A stretch of 64,000 nt of DNA from an uncultured Sphingomonadales bacterium. GTDB lineage: Bacteria > Pseudomonadota > Alphaproteobacteria > Sphingomonadales > Sphingomonadaceae. The notes under the pieces are model-generated. The model made no database searches, had not been told where the DNA came from, and saw only the letters and a program-made list of their open reading frames with translations. Below are positions 2,701 to 25,502 of the stretch, in pieces (the stretch's first letter is position 1; each line of letters opens with the position of its first letter). The stretch spans positions 1 to 64,000 of the forward strand of contig CAIJLW010000024.1 in assembly GCA_903821685.1 (NCBI GenBank), given 5' to 3'. The translations under genes were made by a program, and so were the position numbers.

Positions 2701-3669
2701 CTAGCGGCTAATCGCTTCCTCGATCCACAAACGTGCATCGGGGAAGCTGCGTTCGACCTCTGGCAAGTCATTCACGCATAGAAATTTAATCGCGTCGCGT
2801 GCACTGCCACGTAAAAAGCCGCTGACATCTTCTGCCGAATATTGGTCCATGTCACCCACCGCGACATGCAGATAATCGCGCGTGTCCAATATCGCGGCGC
2901 TTCCGTCGGCAAGGCAGGCATGGTTATGCAGGCTTTGCGGCAGAAACTGCCCTGCATCGCGAAAGCGGAAACTGGCATTGGCGATAAAGGCGTCGCGATA
3001 GGTATCGAACAATTGCGCCATCACCGAACGCTGCATCGGGTGGACAACATGCGCGCTTTCAAACACTTGGTCGGCGGTATAGCCAATCATCTGTGCGGCG
3101 TTGATCTGATTATAATGGTTCAGCATGCTTGCGTCATCACGCCGCGCGCCGCACGCCACAAGGTCGCTGTGGTCCGCCCATTGGCCGCGCAGCACTGGGC
3201 CATCGCCCGCAAAGAAATCCGATCGCGTTACCGGCGCGGTTAGGAAGACGTCATCGTTAAAATATAGAAAATGTTCGGCAAGGCCGGGGATACGCCACAG
3301 CATCGTTTCAATCGACAGCGAATTGAATGTGGGTAACGCGTCGTCATATCCCGCAAAAATCTCGCTGTGATCAACGATGCTGATCTTTGCGGCGATTTCA
3401 GGGGGAAGCTGCATGATTTCCGGCGTCTGGGCATCGGTAACGATCCAGATCCGCCGCACCCAAGGCGCGTTGTTGGCGATGGAGCGCACACAATAATTCA
3501 GCTCGTCACTGCACAGCCACCGATGGGGGTTGGTGCCATTGTCATGCAATGGCGCACGCGCTTGAGCCACCACGTCAGCCTGCGCCAACGCCAAATGCCG
3601 CTCCCGCTTTGCCCGATGCACAGGGTCCGCCCCGTCCACCCAAGTAATGACTGCATCAACTTCAAACAT
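2701..3669 (-). CDS. Stealth-family sugar-phosphate transferase
   Basis: About 322 residues from the ATG at 3669. The conserved regions of the Stealth family are visible: an N-terminal VDAVITWVDGADP block at residues 4-16, a central segment with NAPWVRRIWIVTDAQTP, and YFNDDVFL further on. The family transfers a phosphorylated sugar (hexose-1-phosphate or similar) to build capsule or other phosphoglycan polymers, as in meningococcal capsule synthesis. The frame stays open upstream to 3834, but the additional residues do not resemble the family, and the domain begins right after the chosen Met. No other capsule gene adjoins it, so the acceptor polymer is unknown. Confidence 0.88.
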   Translation of the reverse strand: MFEVDAVITWVDGADPVHRAKRERHLALAQADVVAQARAPLHDNGTNPHRWLCSDELNYCVRSIANNAPWVRRIWIVTDAQTPEIMQLPPEIAAKISIVDHSEIFAGYDDALPTFNSLSIETMLWRIPGLAEHFLYFNDDVFLTAPVTRSDFFAGDGPVLRGQWADHSDLVACGARRDDASMLNHYNQINAAQMIGYTADQVFESAHVVHPMQRSVMAQLFDTYRDAFIANASFRFRDAGQFLPQSLHNHACLADGSAAILDTRDYLHVAVGDMDQYSAEDVSGFLRGSARDAIKFLCVNDLPEVERSFPDARLWIEEAISR

Positions 3670-5592: not shown

Positions 5593-5903
5593 TACCGTTT
5601 CCGCACGAACTCGGCGCGCAGCACCAGGCCCTTTATGCCGTCGAAACGGCAATCAATCTCCTGCGCATCGCCCGTCAGGCGGATGGACTTGATTAGTGTT
5701 CCCCGTTTTAGAGTTTGTCCAGCGCCCTTGACGGTTAGATCTTTAATCAAGGTTACTTGGTCGCCATCCATAAGCAGATTCCCAACCGCGTCGCGCACTT
5801 CGACGGCACCGTCTGCCTCAGTTGCGATCTTGGCAGCGGCGGCGCTTATCCATTCCCCAGATGCCTCGTCATAGACATAATCTTCGTCATTTGCGTCGCT
5901 CAT
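5592..5903 (-). CDS. PhnA-family protein
   Basis: 103 residues. It has the C-terminal PhnA domain: VRDAVGNLLMDGDQVTLIKDL, then VKGAGQTLKRGTLIKSIRLT and a final EFVRKR. The family was named from a neighbour of phosphonate genes, but its biochemical role is not settled, and no phosphonate gene is nearby. The N-terminal zinc ribbon of longer PhnA proteins is missing; instead there is an acidic start MSDANDEDYVYDE. The ATG at 5903 has AAGGAC upstream. It is first in a two-gene unit with doxX. Confidence 0.88.
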   Translation of the reverse strand: MSDANDEDYVYDEASGEWISAAAAKIATEADGAVEVRDAVGNLLMDGDQVTLIKDLTVKGAGQTLKRGTLIKSIRLTGDAQEIDCRFDGIKGLVLRAEFVRKR

Positions 5904-15701: not shown

Positions 15702-17006
15702 TCAAAGCACATATTTCGACAGGTCAGTGTCCTTGGCGATGCCGGAAAGCTGCTTGCTGACATAAGCGGCGTCGATTTTGAGCGTTTCACCCTTGCGGTC
15801 CTCGGCATCAAAACTGATGTCTTCAAGCAGCTTTTCCATCACGGTCTGCAATCGCCGTGCGCCGATATTCTCCACCGTCGAATTCACGTCGAAAGCAATG
15901 CGCGCGATCGCGTCGATGGCATCATCAGTGAATTCCAAAGTAACCTCTTCGGTGGCCAACAATGCCTTATACTGCGTCGGCAAATTGGCACGGGTTTCCG
16001 AGAGAATACGAACGAAGTCCGCATGCTCCAACGCGCGCAGTTCCACGCGGATGGGCAAGCGGCCCTGTAATTCAGGAAGCATATCGCTTGGCTTGGAGAT
16101 GTGGAACGCACCAGACGCAATGAACAACACATGGTCGGTTTTCATCGGGCCATATTTGGTGGCAACAGTTGTGCCTTCAATCAATGGCAGCAGGTCGCGT
16201 TGAACGCCTTCGCGGCTGACGGAGCCTCCGCCCCGTGCGTCCGACACGGCAATCTTGTCGATTTCGTCAAGAAATACGATGCCATTGGCTTCCGCGTCGG
16301 CAAGTGCCACGCGGTTGACGTCATCTTGGTCTAGGCGCTTTTCTGATTCTTCTTCGACCAGCTTGGTCCAAGCATCGGGGACTTTCATCTTGCGGCGTTT
16401 CAGATTGTCCTTGCCAAAGGCTTTGCCCATCATTTCGCCAATATTGATCATGCCGACATTGCCGCCCATGCCCGGTATTTCCATGGGCATGTTGGGGGCA
16501 TCGGAAACTTCAATCTCGATTTCCACTTCATCCATGTGACGGTCGCGGATACGTTGACGGAATGCTCCGCGTGTGGCTTCGCTGGCGGTATCACCTGCCA
16601 GCGTTTTTAGTATCCGTTCCATTGCTGCGGCTTCTGCGGCTTCACGCACAACTTCGCGACGGCGTTCTTTTTCAAGGCGCACGGCTTCTTCGGCCAAATC
16701 GCGTGCAATTTGTTCTACATCGCGTCCGACATAGCCGACTTCGGTGAATTTGGTGGCCTCCACCTTAATGAAAGGCGCATCGGCCAATTTGGCCAAGCGG
16801 CGGGAAATTTCGGTCTTGCCGCAACCCGTGGGGCCAATCATCAGGATGTTTTTCGGCGTCACCTCGTCACGCAAATCAGCACCAAGGCGTTGGCGGCGCC
16901 AACGGTTGCGCAGTGCAACTGCAACGGCACGCTTTGCGTCTGCCTGACCAATGATGTGTTCGTCGAGTGCAGCCACAATGGCTTTTGGGGTGAGTGCGTT
17001 TTTCAT
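15702..17006 (-). CDS. hslU: ATP-dependent protease ATPase subunit HslU
   Basis: 434 residues. An AAA+ Clp/Hsp100 protein with Walker A GPTGCGKT (58-65), Walker B FLDEID and a sensor region, plus the I-domain insert between about 110 and 240 that handles substrate. It unfolds proteins and feeds them to the HslV peptidase. The C-terminal tail ends in LSKYVL; the last residues of HslU dock into HslV. It lies 47 bases after hslV on the same strand and is presumably co-transcribed from the promoter before hslV. Confidence 0.98.
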
Positions 17007-18903: not shown

Positions 18904-18969
18904 ATGCATTCAAAAAATTCACGAGCTATAATATTCCACAAAAATAGGCGTGCCATGTTATGCGGATAG
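18904..18969 (+). CDS. Possible upstream leader ORF overlapping the amidase start
   Basis: A 22-codon frame including the stop (ATG 18904, TAG 18967-18969), basic, of 21 residues. It is preceded by a strong GGGAGGG site (about 18889-18895) 8 bases before its ATG. It overlaps the amidase start codon (18960) in another frame by 10 bases. The amidase itself has no clear Shine-Dalgarno, so this frame may couple translation to it. There is no homology evidence. Confidence 0.35.
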   Translation: MHSKNSRAIIFHKNRRAMLCG

Positions 18970-19787
18970 CCTTGCATCAAATGACCAGCGGCATTGATCC
19001 GGAACGTAATGTTTTGGCCATGGTCAATGCTATCACGCGGTCTGCCGAAGCTGGGGCCGCGATGTATTTTGCCCCTGAAATGTCTATCATTATTGATCGC
19101 GACCGAGTTCGCGCGCGGCCGCATTTGGCAGCCGAAGCGCACATGGCGGCGTTGGCGAAATTATCCGACTGCGCATTGCAATATGGAATATGGTTGCATC
19201 TTGGGTCGATACCCGTTGTCCATGAAAATGGTCAAAAGCTTGCAAACCGCTCCATCATCATTGGCGCAGATGGCAAGATTAAGGCCCGATACGACAAGAT
19301 GCACTTGTTTGATGTCAATTTGGACACGGGGGAATCTTGGAAGGAATCCGCGGCCTATGCCGGTGGAGACCGGCCCGTGGTAGTTAAAACGCCGCTTGGC
19401 CTCATGGGCCTAGCTATCTGCTATGACATGAGATTTCCTGACCTGTTTAGCGCCTATGCCAAATCCTGCGTGGATATCATTACCTTGCCTTCGGCGTTCA
19501 CGGTACCCACAGGTCAGGCGCATTGGCATAGTATTTTGCGGGCGCGGGCCATTGAAAGCGAAGCATTTGTGATCGCCGCAGCCCAATGCGGGCTCCATGA
19601 AGATGGCCGCCAAACCTATGGGCACTCGCTGGTCGTTGATCCGTGGGGAAAAATAGTCCTTGATATGGGTGCATCACCTAATCTTGCGTTTGTGAATCTG
19701 GATATCGGCACAATCGCTGAGGTCCGAAAGCAGATCCCAGTTCATGCGAACCGTCGCACAATTCCGACCCCCTTTATCGCTGGCTAA
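18960..19787 (+). CDS. Carbon-nitrogen hydrolase, Nit1-like (probable deaminated-glutathione amidase)
   Basis: 275 residues. The Glu-Lys-Cys triad of the nitrilase superfamily is in place: E40 in FAPEMS, K113 in YDKMHLFDV and C154 in AICYDMRFPDLF. The end of the protein (AAAQCG, YGHSLVVDPWGKIVLD, and a final VHANRR) matches the Nit1/Nit2 branch. Nit1 removes the amide from deaminated glutathione, a side product of transaminases; assignment to that substrate is by family resemblance. An in-frame stop at 18945-18947 fixes the start at 18960. The 290-base upstream gap is A/T-rich and contains the small ORF described separately. Confidence 0.88.
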   Translation: MRIALHQMTSGIDPERNVLAMVNAITRSAEAGAAMYFAPEMSIIIDRDRVRARPHLAAEAHMAALAKLSDCALQYGIWLHLGSIPVVHENGQKLANRSIIIGADGKIKARYDKMHLFDVNLDTGESWKESAAYAGGDRPVVVKTPLGLMGLAICYDMRFPDLFSAYAKSCVDIITLPSAFTVPTGQAHWHSILRARAIESEAFVIAAAQCGLHEDGRQTYGHSLVVDPWGKIVLDMGASPNLAFVNLDIGTIAEVRKQIPVHANRRTIPTPFIAG

Positions 19788-19808
19788 AACAAGGCTACGG
19801 GGCCGCGG

Positions 19809-20024
19809 ATGGATTGGATTGGAAAATTTGCCTGGCAGGACCATTTTTGGACCGTTGCCGCGCTTTTGTCGGCATCAATGGTGTTGATTAGCGGCCTTGC
19901 GGACCGCCGCCGCCATAAACGCGTCAATATCGAAGACGTAGGTTTCGTCCCTTGGCCTACTATTACCGTGCTTTCCGTACTCGGCACCGTTTTGGCTGCG
20001 GCACTGGCTATTAAAGGGCTTTAA
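19809..20024 (+). CDS. Small two-helix membrane protein of unknown function
   Basis: 71 residues. Two hydrophobic segments (about residues 14-32 and 50-69) flank a basic cytoplasmic-type loop RRRHKRVNIED. No family recognised. It starts 21 bases after the amidase and is probably in the same transcript. Its TAA stop overlaps by 4 bases (TTAA) the stop of the convergent cpaF-like gene. Conservation would be needed to be certain, but spacing and composition favour a real gene. Confidence 0.65.
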   Translation: MDWIGKFAWQDHFWTVAALLSASMVLISGLADRRRHKRVNIEDVGFVPWPTITVLSVLGTVLAAALAIKGL

Positions 20025-21571
20025 CCCAAGCAGGCTTCTAAAAATGGCTGGTCGAAACCAAATTGCCGTGCCTTTTCGAGTGTATAGGGTCGCACGCCGC
20101 CTGCGACCCATTCGCCGTGGATTATGCCGTCTGCATCTTCGTCGCGATGTTCAAATTTGAATAGGTCCTGCGTGACAATAACGTCACCTTCCATGCCAAT
20201 CACTTCAGTGATCTGCGTCGTTCGACGTGAACCGTCGCGCAGACGCTTTACCTGAACGATGAGATCGACGGATTCAGCTATCTGTCTTGAAATGGCTTCC
20301 TTCGGTATCTTGATGTCACCCATCAGGATCATGTTTTCCATACGGCCAAGACATTCGCGCGGATTGTTGGCGTGAAGCGTACACATGGATCCATCATGGC
20401 CCGTGTTCATGGCGGCGAGCAAATCGAAACATTCCGCACCACGAATTTCGCCCAAAATGATGCGGTCTGGACGCATACGCAGCGCGTTCTTCACAAGGTC
20501 ACCGATCGTAATCGCACCATCGCCTTCAAGATTTGGTGGGCGTGTTTCAAGCGGTAACCAATGTGGTTGCTGAAGCCGAAGTTCGGCGGCGTCTTCTATA
20601 GTCAACACGCGCTCACCGGGGTCAATCATTTTGGACAGGGCATTGAGCATGGTGATTTTACCTGAACCGGTGCCGCCCGAAATGACGATGTTCATCCGGC
20701 TCGCGCCCGCAATTTTGAGCGCAGTCGCCATCGCTTCGCTCATGGAACCAAAGCCCTTTAACATATCGATGGTAATCGGCTTTTCGGAGAATTTACGAAT
20801 GGAGATAGCGGTTCCGCGCAGTGACAAGGGCGGCACAATGACGTTGACGCGACTGCCGTCTTTTAGGCGCGCATCGGCAAGCGGCGTGGTCTGGTCGACG
20901 CGGCGACCCACTTGGTTGACGATCCGCTGTGCAATCTGAAACAAATGTTCTTCATCGCGAAACTGAATCGGCGCGATTTGCAGCTTGCCCTTTTTTTCGA
21001 TGTACGTTTGAAGCGGGCCGTTGACCATGATATCGGTGATATCCGGGTCGCTCAGTAATTCCTCAAGCGGCCCAAATCCAAGTAACTCGTCGACCAGAAC
21101 CTTTTCCAGTGCAAATTGCTCGCGCCGGTTCAGGGTAAGTTTAAGTTCTGCCAGAACTTCAAGGATGATTGGCCGGAATTCCTCTGTCAGCTCTTCTTTA
21201 TCTAGCGAAGCTGCGGCCTCCGGGTCTACACGCTCAAGCAAGCGAGGAAGCACCTGTTCCTTGATCTTATGGACCGAAGCTTCAAACCCCTGCGGGCCGT
21301 CATCAATAGGCGCAGTGTTGTTCGCGCGATCAGACAGACGGCTCATAGCCTCCTGCATCGACGTTTGTGGAATTATCGTACTGCCGGACAGATCGACCGT
21401 TTCAGGTGTTGGAAATTGTTCGTCGCTGCCAGCAGGCTGCATGTAATCGGGTTGCGGCTGCAAAACAGGCTGTTGTGGGGCAGGTACCATTCCGCTGCCC
21501 CGCATAGGGCCGGCGACGCCAAATGATGGACGTCCCGCAGATAAGCCTGATTTTTTTCCAAATGCGTTCAC
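20021..21571 (-). CDS. CpaF/TadA-type secretion ATPase with altered Walker A
   Basis: 516 residues, GTG start at 21571 with GGAG upstream. The N-terminus is a Gly/Pro/Gln-rich linker; the type II/IV secretion ATPase domain covers about residues 130-480. Catalytic segments are clear: [19 protein letters not shown] and [30 protein letters not shown]. These ATPases power assembly of Flp/Tad pili. The Walker A motif reads GGTGSGKIT: Ile306 replaces the Thr that coordinates Mg-ATP in the family (codon ATC; ACC would be normal). No other tad/cpa gene is in the window, so this copy is an orphan here. Confidence 0.93.
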
Positions 21572-21737
21572 GCTGACATGCTCCGATGGCCCTTGGTCGT
21601 CACCACATTGGTGCTATCTGGAAATGGTGAATAAAAAAGTAATGGTGGTATCGTTTATTACCCCCAGGCCATGGTTTCTGCAGCTTTCTATTCCGACAAA
21701 ACCTAACTAAGCGGATGCAGCAAAAAGGGAATTGTAC

Positions 21738-22616
21738 GTGTTGTCATCTTCGGCCCGGTCGGGCCTTTTTTATGCACTTTGTGGTTTTGCATTGCTGTCC
21801 TTGGGGGATGCGATCATTAAAACTATCGCCGGCGCGTGGCCAGGAACTGCGGTAGCCGCGCTGCGGTATGCGGTGGGTGCTTTAGGGCTTGGTACATTGC
21901 TGTTCGTCAAACAAGGGCGGCAGGGCTTTGCGATTCCCAAGCCGAAAGTTCAGCTTCTCCGGGGGTTTGCTGTTGCAACGGCGACCATTTGTTTCTTTTC
22001 ATCGATTTTCCTGATGCCGCTGGCAGAGGCTACGGCCATCGGTTTTACAAGCCCCATAATTACTGCCGTTTTGAGCTTTATCATTCTGCGTGAGCGGACG
22101 AATGCCACAAAGTGGTTGGCTACGATTATCGCATTTGGCGGTGTGCTGTTGATCATGCGACCGAATGTAGAAGATCTTGGCTGGGCTGCTTTACTACCGC
22201 TGGCCTCGGCATTTGCCATGGCGTTGGTGATGATCGGAAACCGCATGGTGGCTGGTGCCGGAACGCCTCTACTCATGCAGTTTCTTGTGGCCTCGGTCGC
22301 CGCTCCAGTGATTATCACTGCGGCCGTTGCGGGCCATTTTTCCGGGATCCCTGCGCTGCACGTTGGCGTTCCCGACTGGACAATCATCGCGCGCTGCTGT
22401 GTTGTGGCCATAACCGCAAGTGTTGGGCATTGGCTGATTTTCATGGGTACGATGCGCGCATCAGCCGCAGAAATCGCCCCGATGTCATATGTTCAATTGT
22501 TGATTGCGCTGGTCGTTGGCATTCTTGTTTTTGGCGACTGGCCTGATGTTACGTCCCTCCTTGGGTCAGGCATCATAATCGCTAGTAGCCTTCTTTTGCT
22601 GCGCAAATCGCGCTAA
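21738..22616 (+). CDS. DMT-superfamily (EamA) exporter
   Basis: About 292 residues with ten hydrophobic helices in two EamA repeats (approximate residues 8-140 and 150-290). The first repeat ends with a FIILRERTNATKWLATIIAFGGVLLI pattern split across helices, typical of the family. These inner-membrane carriers export small metabolites or amino acids; the substrate is not predictable. GTG at 21738 is 8 bases after AAAGGGA and is preferred over the TTG at 21732. It is divergent from the cpaF-like gene, with a 166-base intergenic region that shows no other feature I can name. Confidence 0.87.
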   Translation: MLSSSARSGLFYALCGFALLSLGDAIIKTIAGAWPGTAVAALRYAVGALGLGTLLFVKQGRQGFAIPKPKVQLLRGFAVATATICFFSSIFLMPLAEATAIGFTSPIITAVLSFIILRERTNATKWLATIIAFGGVLLIMRPNVEDLGWAALLPLASAFAMALVMIGNRMVAGAGTPLLMQFLVASVAAPVIITAAVAGHFSGIPALHVGVPDWTIIARCCVVAITASVGHWLIFMGTMRASAAEIAPMSYVQLLIALVVGILVFGDWPDVTSLLGSGIIIASSLLLLRKSR

Positions 22617-22685
22617 ATCCTGCGTCAGCACTGACGTAACAAATTAGCAAAAGACTTGGCCAAAACGGGCTGCTATCGCACCGTC

Positions 22686-25502
22686 ATGTCTGATCAAAAG
22701 CATCTCTACCTCGTTGACGGCTCCGCCTATATTTTCCGGGCCTATCACCGGCTGCCGCCGCTCACCAACAAGCATGGTGAACCTGTGGGCGCGGTATATG
22801 GCTATACCACGATGTTGTGGAAATTGGCGGATGACCTCAACCAAGCTGATGGTCCAACGCACATGGCGGTGGTGCTGGATAAATCCAGCCAGACCTTCCG
22901 CAACCGCATTTACGACCAATACAAGGCGCATCGTCCCGACCCGCCAGAAGATCTAAAGCCGCAATTTCCTATGATCCGCGATGCAACGCGCGCGTTTTCG
23001 TTGCCGCTGATCGAAGAGGATGATGTCGAAGCCGATGACATGATCGCAAGCTACGCCAAGGCTGCATGTGCCGCTGGCTGGCATGTCACCATCATCAGCA
23101 GCGATAAGGACCTGATGCAGCTTGTGGAACCCTGCATCGACATGTTCGACACCATGAAAAACGAACGCATCCGCGCCGAAGAAGTGCATGAAAAATTTGG
23201 TGTTGGCCCGGAAAAGGTTGGCGATGTGCTCGCGCTCATGGGCGATAGCGTAGATAATGTGCCGGGTGTACCGGGCGTTGGCCCAAAGACCGCGACCAAG
23301 CTGATTCAGGAATTTGGCGATCTCGAAAGCGTCTTGGCCGCGGCCCCGGATATGAAGCCATCCAAAATGCGCGATAACCTCATCGAGCATGCAGACAAGG
23401 CGCGGCTGTCGAAAGTTTTGGTCACGTTGAAAGAAGACTGCGCGCTGCCGATTGCCATTGAAGACATGGTTTTGGGTGCGATTCCGGAAGAGCCGCTGGC
23501 CGAATTTTTGCAGCATCATGGGTTTAATTCTCTGCTGAAGCGCATTGGGCATGTTGCGAACACCGCCGCTGCCAACAAGGCGATTGCGGGTAACCCCAAG
23601 GCGATGAACGCAGGCGACGGCGCGGAACGCGCGCCGGTAATGGGCGCGTCCGCCGTCCCTGCGCCGATGCCAAAGATCGACGTTTCGGCTTATGAATGCG
23701 TGACGGACATATCGCGGCTGGACCATTGGATCACCCGCGCCCGCGAAACCGGTACGCTTGGCTTTGACACCGAAACCGACAGCTTGCAGGCGGCGAGTGC
23801 GAACCTCGTTGGCCTAAGCCTCGCAGTAGCGCCCGGTGAAGCCTGTTACGTTCCGCTGGCGCATGGCGGGACCGATATGTTTGCCGAAAAGCCGGTGCAA
23901 ATCCCCATGGAGGCAGCGCTAGCCAAGTTACGTCCGCTTCTGAGCGATCCAAGCGTTCTGAAAATCGGCCAGAATTTGAAATATGATATGTCGGTGGTTG
24001 CGCGATATGATGTTCAGATCACGCCCTATGACGATACTATGGTGATGAGCTTTGCATTAGACGCAGGGCGTCAGGCGCATGGCATGGATGAGCTTTCAAA
24101 GACGCATCTCGGGCATGAATGCATTTCGTATAAAAGCGTCACTGGCACTGGCAAAAGCCAGATTGGCTTTGCAGCGGTGCCGCTGTCGGATGCCACCCGC
24201 TACGCAGCAGAAGACGCCGATGTCACATTGCGGCTTTGGTATCATCTGAAACTGCGGCTTAGCCCCGAAAAAGCGACCAGCGTTTATGAACTGGTAGACC
24301 GCCCGTTGGTGCCTGTGCTCTCGCAGATGGAATGTGCGGGCATAAAGGTCGATCGCGCCGCCCTTGCGCGCCTGTCGTCCGAATTTGCCACGCAAATGGA
24401 AGTGTTGGAAAAGGAAATCCACGGGCTGGCCGGACAGCCTTTTACCATTGGGAGCCCGCAGCAATTGGGCGACATTCTGTTTGGTAAAATGGGGTATAAG
24501 GGTGGCAAAAAGGGCAAGTCAGGGCAATATTCGACTGACGTGACGGTGCTTGAGGATCTTGCGGGACAGGGTATCGAAATCGCGCGCAAGGTGCTGGACT
24601 GGCGCCAGCTTGCAAAGCTTAAGTCCACCTATACAGACAGCCTGCAGCAGCAGATTGACCCGAAAACAGGCCGCGTACACACGAGCTACAGCCTGGTGGG
24701 TGCGCAAACCGGGCGACTATCGTCAACGGACCCCAATTTGCAGAATATTCCCATTCGGACCGAGACGGGGCGTCAGATAAGGGACGCATTTGTCGCGGAA
24801 CCCGGCAATGTCATATTGTCTGCCGACTATAGCCAGATCGAACTGCGCCTTGCCGCGCATTTTGCCGATGTGGCGCCTTTGCGCGATGCTTTTGAAAAGG
24901 GCGAAGATATCCATGCGCGCACCGCGCTGGAACTGTTTGGCGAAGTCAACCGCGACACACGCGGACGGGCTAAAACAATCAACTTCTCCATCCTCTATGG
25001 CATTTCGCGATGGGGACTTTCAAAGCGTCTGGAATCTTCGGCGGACGAGGCGCAGGCGCTTATTGACGCGTATTTCAAACGCTTCCCCGGCATTTCCAAT
25101 TATATTCAGGAAACGATGGCCACAGTGCGCGAATGTGGGCACTCAACCACCTTGTTCGGGCGTAAAACATGGTTTCCGCGCATTACGTCACCCAACCAAG
25201 CCGAACGGCAGGGCAGCGAGCGTGCGGCGATAAATGCACCCATTCAAGGGACAAGCGCCGACATCATCAAACGCGCCATGGTGCAAATGGGACCGGCGCT
25301 TAAAGCTGCTGGCTTAGGTCACGTCCAAATGCTGCTTCAGGTGCATGACGAATTGGTATTTGAATTGCCGCAAGCCGATGTCGCGGCCGCAAGCGAGATC
25401 ATCCGCAACGTTATGGCCAATGCCGCAGAGCCGCTGGTGAAGCTCAACGTGCCCTTGGGCATTGAAATCGGCACTGGACCAAGCTGGGGGGCGGCGCACT
25501 AA
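22686..25502 (+). CDS. polA: DNA polymerase I
   Basis: 938 residues with all three domains. The N-terminal 5'-3' exonuclease starts LYLVDGSAYIFRAYH and has DDVEADDMIAS. The 3'-5' proofreading domain has the metal-binding GFDTETD near residue 360, so proofreading should be intact. The polymerase domain has motif A SADYSQIELRL (about 711), the O-helix region RGRAKTINFSILYG and motif C QVHDELVFELP. It fills gaps and removes RNA primers. The ATG at 22686 matches the family start. It is convergent with the DUF2171 gene with a gap of 18 bases and no visible terminator. Confidence 0.98.
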   Translation: MSDQKHLYLVDGSAYIFRAYHRLPPLTNKHGEPVGAVYGYTTMLWKLADDLNQADGPTHMAVVLDKSSQTFRNRIYDQYKAHRPDPPEDLKPQFPMIRDATRAFSLPLIEEDDVEADDMIASYAKAACAAGWHVTIISSDKDLMQLVEPCIDMFDTMKNERIRAEEVHEKFGVGPEKVGDVLALMGDSVDNVPGVPGVGPKTATKLIQEFGDLESVLAAAPDMKPSKMRDNLIEHADKARLSKVLVTLKEDCALPIAIEDMVLGAIPEEPLAEFLQHHGFNSLLKRIGHVANTAAANKAIAGNPKAMNAGDGAERAPVMGASAVPAPMPKIDVSAYECVTDISRLDHWITRARETGTLGFDTETDSLQAASANLVGLSLAVAPGEACYVPLAHGGTDMFAEKPVQIPMEAALAKLRPLLSDPSVLKIGQNLKYDMSVVARYDVQITPYDDTMVMSFALDAGRQAHGMDELSKTHLGHECISYKSVTGTGKSQIGFAAVPLSDATRYAAEDADVTLRLWYHLKLRLSPEKATSVYELVDRPLVPVLSQMECAGIKVDRAALARLSSEFATQMEVLEKEIHGLAGQPFTIGSPQQLGDILFGKMGYKGGKKGKSGQYSTDVTVLEDLAGQGIEIARKVLDWRQLAKLKSTYTDSLQQQIDPKTGRVHTSYSLVGAQTGRLSSTDPNLQNIPIRTETGRQIRDAFVAEPGNVILSADYSQIELRLAAHFADVAPLRDAFEKGEDIHARTALELFGEVNRDTRGRAKTINFSILYGISRWGLSKRLESSADEAQALIDAYFKRFPGISNYIQETMATVRECGHSTTLFGRKTWFPRITSPNQAERQGSERAAINAPIQGTSADIIKRAMVQMGPALKAAGLGHVQMLLQVHDELVFELPQADVAAASEIIRNVMANAAEPLVKLNVPLGIEIGTGPSWGAAH

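Follow-up and report, generated by a model that had tools for sequence, protein, structure and literature searches.

The cpaF gene and its Walker A motif

The window, the whole 64,000-nucleotide stretch of DNA that was analysed, carries a single gene for the motor ATPase of the Tad pilus on its minus strand, between two conserved neighbours that, like polA, were named by eye. The features of the locus are as follows.

18960–19787, plus strand: nitrilase-type hydrolase, conserved neighbour on one side of the cpaF site
20021–21571, minus strand: orphan cpaF, Tad pilus motor ATPase gene, 516 aa, GTG start (Pfam T2SSE, 2.7e-57; solved CpaF 8rkd, E 2e-137)
20123–20125, minus strand: codon 483, Ile; Lys in 78 of 80 loci
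20147–20149, minus strand: codon 475, His; Tyr in 80 of 80 loci; second invariant column broken
20447–20449, minus strand: Walker B Glu375 (Caulobacter E357, numbering from the available part of PMC12019362), intact
20582–20584, minus strand: Asp-box Glu330 (Caulobacter E312, the other Mg ligand in the available part of PMC12019362), intact
20654–20656, minus strand: codon 306, ATC (Ile); Thr in all relatives read
20654–20677, minus strand: Walker A, residues 299–306, GGTGSGKI
21732–22616, plus strand: DMT-type transporter, conserved neighbour on the other side of the cpaF site
22656–25502, plus strand: polA, which served to locate the cpaF site in relatives

The encoded protein belongs to the CpaF family by its T2SSE domain and its near full-length likeness to a solved CpaF. 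The nearest solved proteins all carry the name CpaF (8rkd, 8rjf and 9e24), with 8rkd matching at E 2e-137 over residues 101–513; we take the three entries to be the Caulobacter protein. The NCBIfam TadA-family model TIGR03819 scored 327.4 bits, under its own cut-off of 373.15, and a PADLOC search for a defence role returned no match. The same gene with the same neighbours is found in genomes G068, G067, G006 and G026, which establishes orthology by position; elsewhere in the genus, in more distant genomes such as G031 and G021, cpaF and polA lie far apart. A protein search of G000, the window's own genome, recovered cpaF and two distant ATPases, 36% identical on contig C15 and 35% on C86. Judged from this search, the window gene is the sole CpaF of G000 and has no spare copy.

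The motif GxxxxGK[S/T] is not intact in this protein. The triplet at 20654–20656 reads GAT on the plus strand and ATC on the minus strand and forms codon 306, directly after the Walker A Lys305, so that the motif ends in isoleucine. The Asp-box glutamate (E330), the Walker B glutamate (E375) and the arginine fingers (R235, R241 and R365) are all there. We compared the protein with Caulobacter crescentus CpaF, the bifunctional motor of the Tad pilus, at ten positions given in the available parts of two published accounts (PMC12019362, PMC11300603). At nine of them the residues agree (D233, R235, R241, G302, K305, E330, R365, E375 and R377), in agreement with the original prediction that the other catalytic motifs are intact. 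The tenth, T288, corresponds to residue 306, with a constant offset of 18 between the numbering of Caulobacter CpaF and that of the window CpaF. In the Caulobacter structure, T288 and E312 hold Mg2+ and K287 coordinates the gamma-phosphate, and the K287A mutation abrogates ATPase activity (available part of PMC12019362). The magnesium-coordinating role that had been attributed to the threonine is thus borne out for the Caulobacter residue, which is replaced by isoleucine in the window protein.

Conservation of the Walker A threonine

Threonine occupied position 306 at 80 of 80 loci from named genomes, which are those kept from at least 592 confirmed candidates of the search, and in 33 of 34 tabulated orthologues from the same genus, with G000 the sole exception. 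Together the two sets, which overlap in part, give 113 of 113 other rows with threonine, and the counts cover CpaF orthologues; some relatives also have more distant CpaF paralogues (~50% identity). Threonine is present as well at four loci (L029–L032) of other families in the order; the closest named relatives among the matches listed are Sphingorhabdus and Sphingomonadales genomes. These counts uphold the original contrast between Ile306 and a family threonine, and on their basis we rejected isoleucine as an accepted variant of the family. The comparison with sister genomes that had been proposed gave threonine in every one read. Nine near relatives encode it as ACC, ACG or ACA, and the sister genome G068 has the predicted ACC, one C-to-T step away from ATC. 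A literature search turned up no report of a threonine/isoleucine change at the Walker A position in secretion ATPases.

Within residues 100–513, 299 columns are invariant in the 80 loci, and the window CpaF breaks two of them, T306I and Y475H. When each of the 80 loci was left out in turn, 69 broke none, seven broke one and four broke two or more. The number of broken columns is therefore not decisive for decay on its own, as 4 of 80 control loci break as many or more.

Deletion of the tad cluster in G000

G068, a Sphingomonadales MAG, encodes a CpaF 96% identical to that of the window at the same place beside polA. Unlike G000, it combines Thr306 with a complete cpaA-B-C-D-E-tadB-tadC cluster on another contig. 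The genes cpaA, cpaB, cpaC, cpaD, a CpaE-like gene, tadB and tadC stand there in one row (L066:9604–16539), named by their Pfam matches (A24 peptidase, RcpC, secretin, CpaD and T2SSF), with the CpaE-like gene identified solely from its position and from a weak, sub-cut-off ParA-type match. Searches with the flanking genes placed the tad locus of G000 on one contig, C128 (L067). Here cpaA breaks off after 32 codons and joins the final 38 codons of tadC, with a 12-base overlap between the two matches, and the scar lies between the immediate neighbours orf318 and orf353, neither of which contains a stop. Eleven flanking proteins were 94.6–99.6% identical between G000 and G068, and the alignment of the two genomes breaks at G068 positions 16443 and 9709, corresponding to the removal of ~6.7 kb. 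The core tad cluster is removed from G000 by one assembled deletion on a contig other than that of cpaF. We rejected an assembly gap in place of the deletion because the scar sits inside C128 between stop-free neighbours. Near the scar, and not adjoining it, the gene for one of the eleven flanking proteins, of 385 aa, has one in-frame stop in the alignment in G000 (L067:3259–4404) and in G017 (L068:3795–4940).

Close relatives have also lost the cluster. G017 carries the same scar as G000, with 97.9% identity over 13.5 kb of the scar region, and has no cpaF. The scar of G067 (L069:67–219) differs from that of G000 and G017 (G000 L067:5359–5556), so these genomes probably lost the cluster through more than one deletion event. 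In G003, G019, G004, G010 and G007 the flanking genes are kept with no tad-gene match between them.

The remainder of the pilus machine was sought in the G000 assembly, a draft of 2.12 Mb in 148 contigs that is 96.6% complete and probably derives from a metagenome. Among the matches listed, PF00482 was found only as a pair of domains in a single 433-aa frame on C86, next to a GspE-like ATPase; in relatives with a tad cluster, further PF00482 matches fall in frames of ~330 aa. Thus no TadB/TadC platform appeared among the PF00482 matches listed, the only remnant being the 38-codon tail of TadC, and a direct search of the genome for TadB found none. Genome searches gave no match to RcpC/CpaB or to TadE-type pseudopilins, and the single A24 peptidase lies on C86. 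On the negative PF00482 (among the matches listed), TadB, TadE and RcpC/CpaB searches we rejected a second tad cluster. The search for other tad/cpa genes and a second cpaF that had been suggested therefore yielded a deleted cluster and one CpaF. Two Flp/Fap pilin genes are still open, at L085:3692–3853 on C84 and L086:3502–3720 on C56, and look like further orphans. Compared with the Caulobacter system, G000 has no detected TadB/TadC platform or CpaB and a CpaA cut to its first 32 codons. Since TadB, TadC, RcpC/CpaB and TadE were all missing in these searches, the CpaF of G000 is an orphan motor.

The fate of cpaF across the genus

We scored 45 same-genus genomes for the tad cluster and the state of cpaF. 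The cluster was scored from PF00482 match counts and frame lengths among the matches listed, together with a TadB search in nine genomes (G000, G015, G020, G022, G023, G027, G062, G065 and G068). In the 16 genomes scored as lacking the cluster (matches listed), cpaF is absent from ten, frameshifted in two (G067 and G023), interrupted by a stop at codon 69 in one (G015), changed to Ile306 in one (G000) and open with threonine in two (G027 and G062). The gene is thus damaged or absent in 13 of the 15 genomes other than G000 scored without a cluster. Where the cluster was scored present (n = 29, matches listed), 28 genomes have a readable, stop-free cpaF with threonine (partial in two), and the one genome with no orthologue, G002, is 72% complete. 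The drafts of G027 and G062 are incomplete, at 85% and 78%; in G027 the two genes that flank the tad site lie on separate contigs, so its cluster may be unassembled. A third PF00482 match, without details, occurs in G015 and in G023, which were scored on the missing TadB alone. At the polA site, nine relatives (G017, G003, G034, G010, G007, G019, G004, G065 and G033) have the usual neighbours with no cpaF between them. No CpaF orthologue was found in G020, where polA lies at a contig end. The one match of a literature search for Tad pilus loss in the Sphingomonadales concerned a Firmicute.

The cpaF of G067 occupies the same site and is 94% identical to that of the window at the DNA level, and G067 is likewise without TadB/TadC (among the matches listed), RcpC or a TadE match. 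Unlike G000, it retains Thr306 in a frameshifted gene and has its own tad scar. A 5.4-kb alignment of G067 with the window contains three single-base gaps, every one within cpaF, and the G067 gene breaks nine invariant columns, four of which (188–192) are at a frameshift. The base-level comparison of frameshifts covers G067 only. One of its frameshifts, in a run of A (L054, ~3410–3437), and that of G023 (L172, ~5807–5834) lie near the same codons, ~186–204.

The cpaF-less site of G017 (L053, contig C34) was aligned with window positions 18958–24448. The nitrilase stretch was 69% identical, the stretch of the DMT transporter and the start of polA 89–90%, and the other covered 2-kb bins 91–99%. 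This pattern suggests that the cpaF-less stretch came into G017 by recombination. Plain vertical descent of the scar and the cpaF loss together was not adopted, given the 69% identity of the nitrilase stretch.

Selection on cpaF

The dN/dS ratio of cpaF was 0.092 between G000 and G068, compared with 0.036–0.040 when either was paired with G006 or G026; rows involving G067 take in residues read out of frame beside its frameshift. Polarised changes numbered 6 nonsynonymous and 22 synonymous in G000 and 2 and 21 in G068, with T306I outside the six, as G006 has another Thr codon. The neighbouring genes are also raised between G000 and G068 (nitrilase 0.325, DMT transporter 0.173). The excess of amino-acid changes gives weak support to decay.

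Interpretation of the isoleucine at position 306

Very probably, Ile306 is a loss-of-function change in a pilus motor gene that was orphaned by the tad deletion and is in early decay. One deletion removed CpaA, CpaB, the secretin CpaC, CpaD, the CpaE-like protein, TadB and TadC and left CpaF behind. Without platform or secretin the motor would have nothing to drive, and selection on its ATPase site would be relaxed. The likely order is deletion of the cluster first, after which the motor gene would be free to lose its magnesium-coordinating residue. The change from Thr306 to isoleucine would strip away the coordinating hydroxyl, and the resulting CpaF probably has weak ATPase activity or none, presumably at no cost to the cell. 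Ile306 would then be the missense stage of the decay that relatives show as frameshift, stop codon and full loss. The recent loss of pilus function that had been put forward as one reading is accordingly supported, both by the scar within a single contig and by the state of cpaF in the other genomes scored without a cluster. Several observations weigh against decay: the conserved part of the protein has changed little beyond Ile306, Y475H and K483I, the frame is open, two Flp pilin genes are still open, and G027 and G062 keep an open cpaF with threonine without a scored tad cluster.

The case is one of ordinary gene decay, in which a deletion on another contig explains an unusual active-site residue better than a new enzyme activity would. 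The genus presents a graded loss of the Tad pilus, from the complete system through an orphan motor with a missense change and one with a frameshift or stop to no motor at all, and such a series offers a means of studying the sequence in which a pilus machine is taken apart. Caution is also called for, as the presence of cpaF is no ground for annotating G000 as piliated.

A base error, or a minority-strain base in a draft genome whose real cpaF has threonine, is an unlikely source of the isoleucine. It would account for a change of one base in one genome when all 113 other CpaF rows (from overlapping sets) have threonine. However, cpaF is orphaned whatever the base at codon 306, so that a damaging change is to be expected; a second invariant column, Y475H, is broken as well, and an error is not needed as an explanation. 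The non-hydrolysing paralogue of the original prediction is not supported, as the other two matches in G000 are distant ATPases and no TadB/TadC platform was found. In a broader form, a selected CpaF that binds ATP without hydrolysing it and acts as a partner in structure or regulation, for example of the remaining type II secretion-like system, would fit the intact Lys305, glutamates and arginine fingers, the open frame and the low overall dN/dS. We consider it very improbable: G000 has no second CpaF to pair with, the system on C86 has its own ATPase and platform protein, isoleucine occurs in no relative read, and cpaF is gone from the sites of nine relatives. It is extremely doubtful that selection fixed Ile306 in an ATP-binding, non-cycling ring with a new role after pilus loss, the gene being repurposed and not decaying.

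The chance that Ile306 is neutral for activity, with Thr307 or water taking over magnesium binding and CpaF still serving a tad system that the assembly lacks, is close to negligible. The two open Flp pilin genes and the draft state of the assembly speak for it. Against these stand a genome that is 96.6% complete yet gave no match to TadB, RcpC or TadE, and a deletion junction that is assembled inside C128 and common to G017.
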